A stretch of DNA of 64,000 nt from Thalassobaculum sp. OXR-137 (lineage in GTDB: Bacteria > Pseudomonadota > Alphaproteobacteria > Thalassobaculales > Thalassobaculaceae): the NCBI RefSeq assembly GCF_034377285.1, contig NZ_CP139715.1:1968001-2032000 (forward strand), written 5' to 3'. Shown piece by piece: positions 22,482-56,455 of the stretch. The position numbers and the translations under genes were made by a program. The notes beneath the pieces were generated by a model. That model was not told the DNA's origin, did not search any database, and saw only the letters and a program-made list of their open reading frames with translations. How positions within the stretch are numbered: position 1 is the stretch's first letter; each line of letters opens with the position of its first letter.

Positions 22482-23048
22482 TTACGGCAGCTCGCTGATC
22501 GACTCGAGCTGCTGCTCCGGCGGGACCCTGGTGCCGCCGGCCTTCTCGATGGCGGCGTCGAGATCGCGCTGGCTGCACAGGCCCAGGAACACCGGGTGAC
22601 GCGCCTGGATGTTCTGAGAGTTCCAGTGGGTGCGCTCGCGGACCTTGTTGATCGTGTCCTTGGTCGTGCCGACCAGCTTGGCGATCTGGGAATCCTTCAG
22701 CTCCTCATGGTGCTTCAGGAGCCAGGCGATCGCGTCCGGCTTGTCGCCGCGCTTGGCGACCGGCACGTATTTCGGGCCCTTGGTGCGCTCCACCGGCTTC
22801 GGCAGCGTCGACTTCGCCATCATCAGGCGGGTCTTCGGGTCCTTCTCGCACCGTTCGATTTCCGCGCGCGTCAGCTGGCCGTTCAGAACCGGATCGAAAC
22901 CCTGGATACCGGTGCTCACCTCGCCATCGGCGATGGCCTGGACTTCCAGCGCGTGCAACTCGCAGAAGGTGGCGATCTGGTCGAAGGTCAAGGCGGTGTT
23001 GTCGATCAGCCAGACGGCGGTCGCCTTGGGCATCAGCGGCTGCGTCAT
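22482..23048 (-). CDS. DUF1013 family protein, TrcR-like cell-cycle regulator
   Basis: A 188-residue soluble protein of the DUF1013 family, found almost only in Alphaproteobacteria and named TrcR in some annotations for a proposed role in cell-cycle transcription. Its parts are the N-terminal MPKATAVWLIDNTALTFDQIATFC, the basic middle segment and KDSQIAKLVGTTKDTINKVRERTHWN, a helix-turn-helix-like segment at about residues 118-145. The ending GLCSQRDLDAAIEKA is also typical. It diverges from a DUF1192 gene across a locally AT-rich promoter region (23100-23175). Confidence 0.85.
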   Translation of the reverse strand: MTQPLMPKATAVWLIDNTALTFDQIATFCELHALEVQAIADGEVSTGIQGFDPVLNGQLTRAEIERCEKDPKTRLMMAKSTLPKPVERTKGPKYVPVAKRGDKPDAIAWLLKHHEELKDSQIAKLVGTTKDTINKVRERTHWNSQNIQARHPVFLGLCSQRDLDAAIEKAGGTRVPPEQQLESISELP

Positions 23049-23189
23049 GATAGTCTCTCCCTTGCCGTCGGGTTCTTCCCGCGTGAGCAGGCTGCATGGA
23101 ATTGGTTGTTACGGATTCGGGAGGTTATATAGAGGCCCCCGTGTGACAAGCAAACGCATTGTGAAGCTATTCGCTTGAAGGAGGCGGTA

Positions 23190-23375
23190 ATGGTCGATCT
23201 GGATGAGCTGGAACCCGGCAAACGTCCAAAGAAGCCGCGCGATCTCTCCACCTGGAATATTGAAGATTTACAGGATTACATTCAGGCAATGGAGGCGGAG
23301 ATCATTCGCGCTCGGGAAATGATCGACCGGAAAAAGGGCGTGGCCAGTGCCGCCAATGCGTTGTTCAAATCGTAA
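23190..23375 (+). CDS. DUF1192 family small protein
   Basis: A 61-residue cytoplasmic protein with two predicted helices: DLDELEPGKRPKKPRDLSTW, then NIEDLQDYIQAMEAEIIRAR and KKGVASAANALFK. This is the DUF1192 pattern of Alphaproteobacteria, of unknown function. The ATG at 23190 follows GAAGGAGG, a strong ribosome binding site. An in-frame codon 15 bases earlier overlaps that site and is unlikely to be the start. Confidence 0.85.
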   Translation: MVDLDELEPGKRPKKPRDLSTWNIEDLQDYIQAMEAEIIRAREMIDRKKGVASAANALFKS

Positions 23376-53342: not shown

Positions 53343-53379
53343 AAAGCCCGCTCCGGTGCATCCGGGGCGGGCTTTTTCT
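53343..53379 (+). terminator. Intrinsic terminator after speE
   Basis: An 11-base-pair GC-rich stem, GCCCGCTCCGG against CCGGGGCGGGC with a TGCAT loop, flanked by AAA and a TTTTTCTT run. It ends the speD-speE transcript just before the converging AT-rich gene. Confidence 0.9.
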
Positions 53380-53389
53380 TCGTTGCTAT

Positions 53390-55186
53390 TCATTCGGGCA
53401 GAAGGGCCCGGTCATCAACTGCTCCAGGAGGAAACCAGAGAACAACTTCAGCGTCATTGGTCGAAATCGGATCTTTTGATAATAAGTCATTTTTGTATTT
53501 ATTATAGCGCATTTCCATATAATTAAAGCAATTGCTGTAAGTGTTGTAATATTGATTTTTTCCTCCTAGGGAGCAAGTCAACTCGAAAACCTGATCAAAG
53601 TAATCGTGGGCATTCACTACTAGTGTTTTTGCAAAGCTTGGGAGTTGACCTCGATGAACAACCAAATTTCTAGTTCGGTATATACGGTGAATTTGCCATT
53701 CCACTCGGCGTTCGTGATCTTCTACTGCCTTGTGGGTGGCTTGACGAGATTTTAAGGTTTTATGATGGGTATAGGTTCTATATCTGAGAAGGTGAAAATC
53801 TCCCATATTCTTAAATAAATCAGACAGAATATCTTCGTTTTCTTTAAGAGATAGAAGGCAATATAGTTGTTGCAGAAGGTTGTGATCTTCACCGCATTTT
53901 GCGGATTTAATGGCGCGATATGCCAGTTTTCTATTCCACCGTAAAATATCCCCGAGCAAGCAGCGTAGGAGTCTACTCATATAATTTAAACCAATAAAAG
54001 GCAAAACTCCATGGGTAACATTTGATATTGTGCTACCTGAGAATGATTCAGGAGTTATTGTTTCCAGTGCGGTCCAAATGTTTACAAGCTGATTTTCTAC
54101 GGAGGTAGAATTAGTGCTCATTCCATGGAAGCTCACGGCGTTAAAAAATTTTTTCTTATCGGGTCCGTTTGGGAATCGTATTTCCTTCATCATAGTTTCC
54201 ATAGCCCTGGCAGCTCGGGCCGGTAGTTTGTCGCGGACGAACTGCATTCTGTTTAGTGAATTTGAATAAATTCCCTTAATTTCAGTACAGCATTTTTGAA
54301 TGACGTAGGACCCATCGCCGATACTCAAGGAGTGCTTGTGATTAAAAAGCCCATATACGTGATGTAGTCTAGCAATACGATGATTGGCGACTTCGACTGC
54401 CTCGTATGGATCTTTTGCCCGAACATCGTCGCTCACAACAACGCGTTGAAAATACTCACCGCAAACTGGATCTATATGTTCTTTTAAGTCATCTACGTCA
54501 TCTTTGTTTATTATCTTAGCGCCAAACGCACTTAGATAGGAGTCCTCTACTAAATGTACTTTAGAATCTATGGGTGTTACAACTTTGAACCAATGAGTGT
54601 GAGGAAATATAATTTTCCAGAAATTTCGTACATCAATATCGTTTGGTACTTTTTCCTCAAAAAAGAACTTAACAACGGAATTATGAATCCATTGACTGCT
54701 TAGCCCAAGATTAATAAGAGAAGAAACTAACTCTCTGCACAAAAAATCAAGATCTATCTTGCGGTCTAATTTTTCTTCATCCAATATGCGCTGAATTAAT
54801 TTAAAGCATTTAATTGAATATGGGTATTGCTTAATTTCTCCTGATAATACTGACAAGCGTTTAAAAATTTCTTCTGGAGAAGTCTTGTCGACTTGGAAAA
54901 AACTATCTAAATCAATATTCACCATCTCTTTAATTATGGGGTTTCCCCGGGTTCTAGTTTCAAGTTCCTTTAAAAGGTGAAGTGCGCCCGGTAGCGCTTT
55001 TATATTATGCTTTGCATAATCTAATGCATCGAGACACTCTATAACAAGGGTAGGCGGCGTCGCTGTTGGGGGACGGTGGCTGTCTAAAGTATATTCGAAT
55101 GATAATTCATCCATTCTTTGGGCAAAAAATACAAGATTATTTCGTGAATCGGGCGTTTCCCAAGACGTCAAACTCCGATATAGCAT
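53390..55186 (-). CDS. AT-rich foreign gene: probable HEPN (ApeA-like) domain protein, candidate RNase/defence factor
   Basis: A 598-residue cytoplasmic protein with base use unlike everything around it; for example, 53461-53520 has only 16 G or C in 60. No signal peptide or long membrane helix is seen. The C-terminal third looks like an all-helical HEPN domain: a NIWTALETIT segment near residue 370 is followed by the motif RTRNLVVHRG, with Arg506-Asn507 and His511 matching the R-x4-H ribonuclease motif. The N-terminal part has LVSSLINLGLSSQWIHNSV, a pattern I associate with large ApeA-like proteins. ApeA itself is an anti-phage HEPN protein; a defence role here is inference. The start has AAAGG eight bases upstream. 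No partner gene is present. Confidence 0.6.
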   Translation of the reverse strand: MLYRSLTSWETPDSRNNLVFFAQRMDELSFEYTLDSHRPPTATPPTLVIECLDALDYAKHNIKALPGALHLLKELETRTRGNPIIKEMVNIDLDSFFQVDKTSPEEIFKRLSVLSGEIKQYPYSIKCFKLIQRILDEEKLDRKIDLDFLCRELVSSLINLGLSSQWIHNSVVKFFFEEKVPNDIDVRNFWKIIFPHTHWFKVVTPIDSKVHLVEDSYLSAFGAKIINKDDVDDLKEHIDPVCGEYFQRVVVSDDVRAKDPYEAVEVANHRIARLHHVYGLFNHKHSLSIGDGSYVIQKCCTEIKGIYSNSLNRMQFVRDKLPARAARAMETMMKEIRFPNGPDKKKFFNAVSFHGMSTNSTSVENQLVNIWTALETITPESFSGSTISNVTHGVLPFIGLNYMSRLLRCLLGDILRWNRKLAYRAIKSAKCGEDHNLLQQLYCLLSLKENEDILSDLFKNMGDFHLLRYRTYTHHKTLKSRQATHKAVEDHERRVEWQIHRIYRTRNLVVHRGQLPSFAKTLVVNAHDYFDQVFELTCSLGGKNQYYNTYSNCFNYMEMRYNKYKNDLLSKDPISTNDAEVVLWFPPGAVDDRALLPE

Positions 55187-55312
55187 TATTGTGCCTTTCT
55201 ATTCTAAGGTTGTGCTAAATATTTGAAGGTACGCATATTCATTTATGTTTTACGCTTCGCCTTTGGTGGAATTTCAAATTAATTCGAAAGTTAATGCAAG
55301 GCGTTATCGATG
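55187..55312. other. AT-rich island edge without a gene
   Basis: This short region upstream of the AT-rich gene keeps the low GC content until about 55305 and then returns to the usual composition. It must hold the island gene's promoter. The 8-mer TATTCATT at 55236-55243 also occurs at the other island edge (53387-53394). Confidence 0.5.
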
Positions 55313-56455
55313 CTAGTCCGTCAGATGGCTCGACGTCACCGTGACGGGCCGGTTGCTGGCGATCTTGGCCACCGTGGCGCCGGTCGGGGCGAAGCGCTGG
55401 ATGCGGCGGGCATAGACGATGCCGTCGCTCTCGGCGAACAGCTCGGTGCGGCCCTCGGCCGGGTCGTCGGCGGTGGGGTCGATCAGGTCGGCGATCGGCT
55501 GCCCTTCCGTCACCTCGGCTCCCAGCGGCACCCGGAAGCTGATGATGCCCGGGGTCGGCGCCTGCACCCGCTCCATGCCCTCCACCGGAACGGTGCGGAC
55601 GGGGGAGGCGGTATCGATGTCCAGCTCCGCCCCACCGTCGATGATCCCGTAGCGCTGCAGCGTCCGGTACAGCCGGTCGGCATCCTCCTCGGCGAGCGCA
55701 TCGCCCACATCGCCGGCGCCGCGCAGCTCTACCGTCGAGCACAGGCAGCCCGCGCGCATCCCGGCGGCGCTCAGCTCCTCGTCGAGTTGCCGCCACGGGG
55801 TGGTCAAGGCCTCGTCGTAGGACATCGCCCCGGTCGGGTTGGTCAGCAGGGTGACCTCGCTGCCCAGCAGGCGCGGCAGGTCGCTCGCCTGCGGCCAGTG
55901 CATGGTGTCGAGGTAGAGGTGGACCAGCCCTTCCTCCTCGCAGTGCAGGTCTAGGGCGAGGTCGGCGTCGCAGCCCAGGCGCATCAGGGTGATGCGCAGA
56001 TAGTCGATCTCGGTTTCCGCCATGCTGGCTCGGTCGGCCAGGATGTCTGCGATGACCTCGCGCACCAGCGCCACATTGGCGGCGGCATCGCCGCTGAGCC
56101 GGCCGCGCACGGCGTTGGCGACCTCGCCCGCGATGGCCGGATAGCCGCGGTTGAAGTTGGCGCCGTCGGCCTCGGCGAAGCGGCCGGACACGTTGCCGCG
56201 CGTCACCTGGGACAGGCCGATCGGATTGGCGATCGGGACCAGCATGATATGGCCGAGGATCTCGTGCTCGGCCGCGTCGAGCCGGCGGATCAGGTGGTGC
56301 AGCGCCAGCGACCCGGCAAGCTCGCCCGCGTGCACGGCCGCCTGGATATACGCCTTCGGCGTAGCGTCGGGGTCGCCGTAGGTGTGGACGGTGAGATAGC
56401 GCTCGGTGCCGAGGCTCATCGGGGGCAGCGGGAAACGCGAAACGATGCGGGTCAT
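55313..56455 (-). CDS. Succinylglutamate desuccinylase/aspartoacylase family protein
   Basis: A 380-residue M14-like zinc hydrolase. The first zinc motif AAVHAGELAGSLALHHL (H-x-x-E) and the second histidine in DADLALDLHCEEEG are present, with VPIANPIGLSQ and NRGYP between. The C-terminal 100 residues form a beta-barrel domain (PTPGIISFRVPLGAEVTEGQPIADL) like the lipoyl-type end of this family. It probably deacylates an N-acyl amino acid or ectoine-like compound; no astE neighbours are present, so arginine catabolism is not supported. Confidence 0.85.
   Translation of the reverse strand: MTRIVSRFPLPPMSLGTERYLTVHTYGDPDATPKAYIQAAVHAGELAGSLALHHLIRRLDAAEHEILGHIMLVPIANPIGLSQVTRGNVSGRFAEADGANFNRGYPAIAGEVANAVRGRLSGDAAANVALVREVIADILADRASMAETEIDYLRITLMRLGCDADLALDLHCEEEGLVHLYLDTMHWPQASDLPRLLGSEVTLLTNPTGAMSYDEALTTPWRQLDEELSAAGMRAGCLCSTVELRGAGDVGDALAEEDADRLYRTLQRYGIIDGGAELDIDTASPVRTVPVEGMERVQAPTPGIISFRVPLGAEVTEGQPIADLIDPTADDPAEGRTELFAESDGIVYARRIQRFAPTGATVAKIASNRPVTVTSSHLTD

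Follow-up and report, generated by a model that had tools for sequence, protein, structure and literature searches.

The apeA gene and its insertion site

The window, by which we mean the whole stretch of 64,000 nucleotides of Thalassobaculum sp. OXR-137 DNA that was analysed, carries an apeA-type gene on its minus strand (53390..55186), recognised by its open reading frame, its whole-length match to Ec3ApeA and Ec2ApeA of Escherichia coli, and its match to the PADLOC ApeA model. The frame is intact, begins with ATG and encodes 598 residues. The choice of this ATG is supported by a likely ribosome-binding site read from the sequence, GAAAGG, located 7 nt before it (55194..55199, minus strand), and by the alignment, in which residue 1 of the window protein pairs with residue 1 of both Ec2ApeA and Ec3ApeA. 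An earlier inspection of the letters (the sequence-only reading) had delimited the gene at 53390-55312; the gene is real, but the end at 55312 takes in about 126 nt of non-coding upstream DNA. For apeA, matches to the promoter consensus were no better than chance.

The GC content of apeA is 39.1% (35% at third positions) versus 67.9% for the whole window, and a window scan found no other 900-bp stretch below 56.8% (at about 22.8 kb), in agreement with the earlier claim that no other gene in the window is clearly foreign. The region at about 22600-23300 has the second-lowest GC content, 57-59%, and is far milder in this respect than the apeA insert.

The left neighbours of apeA are speD and speE (AdoMet_dc and Spermine_synth domains), and the right neighbour is a gene of the succinylglutamate desuccinylase/aspartoacylase type (AstE_AspA_cat domain), which confirms the position first assigned to apeA between speE and an aspartoacylase-type gene. 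The speE terminator, consisting of a 14-bp stem and a T run (53343..53375, plus strand), is approached convergently by apeA from the other side, and a stem-loop is also found in the empty sites of congeners. In congener G002, the match to the left flank ends at 53378 and that to the right flank resumes at 55317, with approximately 15 bp between the matched parts; in congener G004, the flanking genes have the identical order and the site is empty. Because the same flanks abut in G002 and the site is empty in G004, these comparisons indicate that about 1.94 kb of DNA (53379..55316, about 1938 bp), with apeA as its sole gene, is inserted just after the speE terminator. Loss of apeA from the congeners, rather than gain in the window genome, is the formal alternative; the low GC content of apeA and the occurrence of its closest kin in another order favour gain. 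At the ends of the insert, a repeat search revealed neither terminal repeats nor a target-site duplication, ORF reading gave no integrase, and a tRNA search found no tRNA nearby.

An imperfect palindrome (55258-55303), with overlapping arms of 27 nt that are 74% complementary, lies in the spacer that separates the start of apeA from the end of the aspartoacylase-type gene. An origin as an integron cassette was considered and rejected: no proper attC core sites were seen by eye, the palindrome does not lie on the side of the gene where an attC site would be expected, and its single-strand folding is little better than that of shuffled sequences (z -1.2).

Homology to ApeA proteins

A phmmer search against PDB sequences matched the window protein to Ec3ApeA (PDB 9hxj) over residues 1-565 (E 1.7e-60) and to Ec2ApeA (9hxi, 9hxd, 9hxe and 9hxb) over residues 1-572 (E 1.1e-55). 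Ec1ApeA (9hxn) and Ec4ApeA (9hxm) gave weaker, partial matches with the single sequence, and a profile of the family spanned most of the length of both. The PADLOC ApeA model PDLC02157 matched with an E value of 2.1e-9 (34.6 bits), pairing residues 355-532 with positions 369-547 of 601, that is, the C-terminal part only. Ec2/Ec3-type proteins themselves score 44-48 bits on this profile (E 1e-12 to 1e-13), and the weak score of the window protein, only a little lower, counts in favour of ApeA. The model represents the defence system named ApeA by Gao et al. 2020.

In Pfam-A, no family matched the window protein at E values up to 10, and Ec2/Ec3-type proteins likewise had no match reaching the Pfam cut-off; NCBIfam and PHROGs gave no match to the window protein. 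Overall, the window protein, which had been called ApeA-like from its C-terminal third, is an ApeA by homology over its whole length. The sequence-only reading also described the N-terminal 350 residues as uncharacterised, which does not hold: the N-terminus of approximately 320 residues is homologous to the N-termini of Ec2ApeA and Ec3ApeA, for which structures have been deposited.

Active site and predicted structure

The predicted RNase active-site motif, R506-N507-x3-H511 (53654..53671, minus strand), closes a long helix formed by residues 481-512. R506 and H511 are present in all 64 aligned sequences and N507 in 62 of them. The R-x4-H pattern alone is weak, as the window protein holds three copies and 78% of shuffles contain it, and even the R[NDH]x3H form occurs in 21% of shuffles; it is conservation that makes the R506/H511 motif meaningful. 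W371, E375, Y402, W497, R501, Y503, R504 and Y529 are likewise invariant in the 64 sequences, and in the N-terminal part E27, E74, Y123, G161 and F175 are kept in at least 62. The invariant E375 (codon 54062..54064, minus strand), predicted to be the acidic residue that assists the HEPN active site, lies upstream of the motif in helix 363-377 of the whole-protein model. It belongs to the TALET segment which, together with the exact positions of R506, N507 and H511 in RTRNLVVHRG, had been pointed out by the sequence-only reading. In catalytic HEPN domains, an arginine, an adjoining polar residue and a histidine stand at the end of helix 3 and take part in catalysis, and a conserved acidic residue stands close to this motif in helix 2 (PMC3710099). 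The pattern of R506, N507, H511 and E375 fits this description.

The whole-protein model has a mean pLDDT of 79.5. The N-terminal part, residues 1-321 (54224..55186, minus strand), is mostly helical in the model with a small alpha/beta stretch at residues 198-308, and is presumed from its homology to Ec2ApeA and Ec3ApeA to be a sensor or regulatory region. The predicted C-terminal HEPN ribonuclease region, residues 322-575 (53462..54223, minus strand), was modelled separately by AlphaFold2 from an alignment of 58 sequences, from which two plasmid-derived rows had been left out, and reached a pLDDT of 92.7; in this model, helix 160-191 ends beside H190, which corresponds to H511. With VIA-align, the best structural neighbour of the domain was the AMPylated HEPN toxin 8xdj (Z 8.0, rmsd 2.6, 105 residues aligned), followed by Csm6 6tug (Z 5.9) and 8pe3 (Z 5.4), among others, and four of the six best neighbours are HEPN RNases. 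The C-terminal part of the whole-protein model similarly resembles the HEPN proteins AbiA, HEPN toxin and Csm6. These neighbours agree with the HEPN fold that had been proposed for this region. Foldseek against the PDB gave nothing significant for either model. A Z score of 8 is modest for helical bundles, and it is sequence homology that carries the assignment to HEPN and ApeA. The 9hx ApeA entries did not appear in the structure-search results; the library ends in April 2026, so their absence is no evidence.

Distribution and genomic context of relatives

A scan of genomes with a family alignment (A2) found relatives at 59 loci in Pseudomonadota, Bacteroidota, Bacillota, Chloroflexota, Planctomycetota, Verrucomicrobiota and methanogenic archaea; 18 loci were found in viral contigs. 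A scan of genome contigs with the single protein, whose peptide patterns are overly specific, found no relatives, and phage records gave no match. The nearest kin, with 65-71% identity, are proteins of Maritimibacter, Rhodobacter and a Rhodobacteraceae MAG (Rhodobacterales). Within the window's own order, represented by 36 genomes of one family, congener G003 is the sole other carrier of a relative. We infer from this distribution that apeA moved between orders.

The GC content of the relatives is below that of their flanks at 47 of 52 loci. This bears on the possibility that the window gene is a decayed or silent passenger, unexpressed and AT-rich through recent arrival from an AT-rich donor. 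AT-rich DNA may be silenced in GC-rich hosts, and the promoter result noted above would suit an unexpressed gene. However, the low GC content is a trait of the family and not peculiar to the window copy, and the frame of 598 codons is intact, the ribosome site is present and all invariant residues are retained. We regard a silent passenger as the least probable of the readings considered here.

Among 145 neighbours of about 50 relatives, no protein family occurred more than three times, which agrees with the earlier description of the gene as having no partners. Stable core-genome surroundings are not the rule for the relatives. Their neighbours include scattered integrases and defence genes such as TIR, HerA and Mads, and several relatives lie in prophages; on two prophage-type contigs (L018 and L029) the relative adjoins tail-completion, lysis and baseplate genes, as cargo between the tail and baseplate genes. 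No other defence gene is directly beside the window apeA. Since only scattered neighbours of the relatives are defence genes, genomic context gives little independent support for a defence role. Genes of the tyrosine recombinase type directly adjoin relatives or stand approximately 1-2 kb away at four loci (L003 118-1452, assigned by ORF reading only; L015 10962-12044; L016 9052-10158; L039 5781-6791), which suggests that several ApeA relatives travel on integrase-driven elements.

These contexts leave some room for a HEPN RNase that serves as a toxin or in general stress, or for a superinfection-exclusion factor that a prophage left behind, with no defence role in the host. HEPN domains fill many toxin and stress roles (PMC3710099), the window gene lies outside any defence island, and relatives are carried in prophages. 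On the other hand, no antitoxin or constant partner adjoins the window gene or its relatives, and the closest characterised relatives are named anti-phage proteins. Moreover, defence genes borne by prophages commonly protect their host. Such a role is highly improbable in our judgement.

Discussion

Our analysis indicates, with a probability of roughly 85%, that the window gene is a horizontally acquired single-gene ApeA whose C-terminal HEPN domain is an RNase and whose N-terminal part senses infection, likely through deoxydinucleotides, so that RNA cutting stops growth. Membership of ApeA, the conserved active-site motif, the HEPN-like predicted fold, the insertion relative to empty congener sites and the lack of a constant partner are results of this study, and they support the single-gene defence reading proposed from the sequence. 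RNase activity, assembly into a dimer or oligomer and an abortive outcome are expected by analogy with relatives and the HEPN superfamily.

In the mechanism that we propose, the N-terminal part would hold the HEPN RNase silent and sense an infection signal. The signal bound would most likely be short DNA breakdown products, deoxydinucleotides, which arise on degradation of host or phage DNA. The active site, comprising R506, N507 and H511 aided by E375, would be formed where two HEPN domains meet. The C-terminal domain would act as a metal-independent endoribonuclease and, once activated, would cut cellular RNA, and growth would stop before phage release.

According to its title, a 2026 preprint cited by PMC13405049 reports activation of ApeA by deoxydinucleotides. 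We infer that this is the likeliest trigger of the window protein as well, with the reserve that its identity to characterised ApeA is 27%; since identity is only at about this level, trigger and target RNA could differ. One alternative is an ApeA homologue that still defends but responds to another trigger, for example a protein of the phage or a signal made of ribonucleotides, and that may cut one particular kind of RNA, for instance tRNA, its N-terminus having diverged in its own clade. The identity to Ec2ApeA and Ec3ApeA is 26-27%, and in the tree the window protein groups with full support with the Maritimibacter and Rhodobacteraceae MAG proteins, apart from the Ec2ApeA/Ec3ApeA clade. In contrast, the N-terminus is collinear end to end with those of Ec2ApeA and Ec3ApeA, without large insertions, and the near-complete conservation of E27, E74, Y123, G161 and F175 suggests a common mechanism. 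We consider such a change of trigger unlikely. That this branch with Rhodobacterales kin forms a separate ApeA line, with the same HEPN RNase and an infection signal unlike that of E. coli ApeA, appears more doubtful still. A deoxydinucleotide-sensing ApeA is the reading that we favour.

The window protein resembles Ec2ApeA and Ec3ApeA in its near-equal length, collinearity over residues 1-572, IYRTRN-x3-H motif and occurrence as single-gene, AT-rich cargo, and differs in its GC-rich host of another lineage and in its position between housekeeping genes rather than in a prophage. Its C-terminal HEPN part matches PADLOC ApeA, Ec1ApeA and Ec4ApeA significantly at collinear positions, whereas the window sequence alone has no significant N-terminal match to them. 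Anantharaman et al. 2013 described an ApeA/BMEI1217 HEPN family with ApeA-NTD1 (PMC3710099), with which the window protein shares a C-terminal HEPN domain, the conserved Rx4-6H and an N-terminal part of approximately 300 residues; in contrast, NTD1 is described as consisting mostly of beta strands, whereas the N-terminus of the window protein is predicted to be mostly helical, and the protein does not match the Pfam models HEPN_ApeA and ApeA-NTD1.

The window gene, a recent insertion, is an ordinary example of an already known, structurally solved defence family, and it makes no long-standing question newly testable. It extends this E. coli family to a GC-rich lineage in the same class as Rhodobacterales, and the 59 genome loci indicate that the ApeA family is broader than Pfam suggests. 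The locus is a clean one-gene insertion with an identified empty site, and divergent ApeA branches provide natural variants useful for mapping the sensor pocket.

The genus also offers observations beyond the window. At the end of contig C120 of G003 (L002/L100), the last approximately 119 codons of another ApeA-like protein are preserved, with the motif IYRCRNLIVH and 33% identity, at a chromosomal site different from that of the window apeA. At another locus of the same genome (L007, G003:C7), the DNA to the right of speE does not match the aspartoacylase-type gene, so the junction that follows the terminator of speE appears to vary within the genus. Two further congeners, G001 and G005, have single-contig genomes of about 1.5 Mb (99% complete) versus 4.7-5.6 Mb in the others, a striking genome reduction inside one genus.
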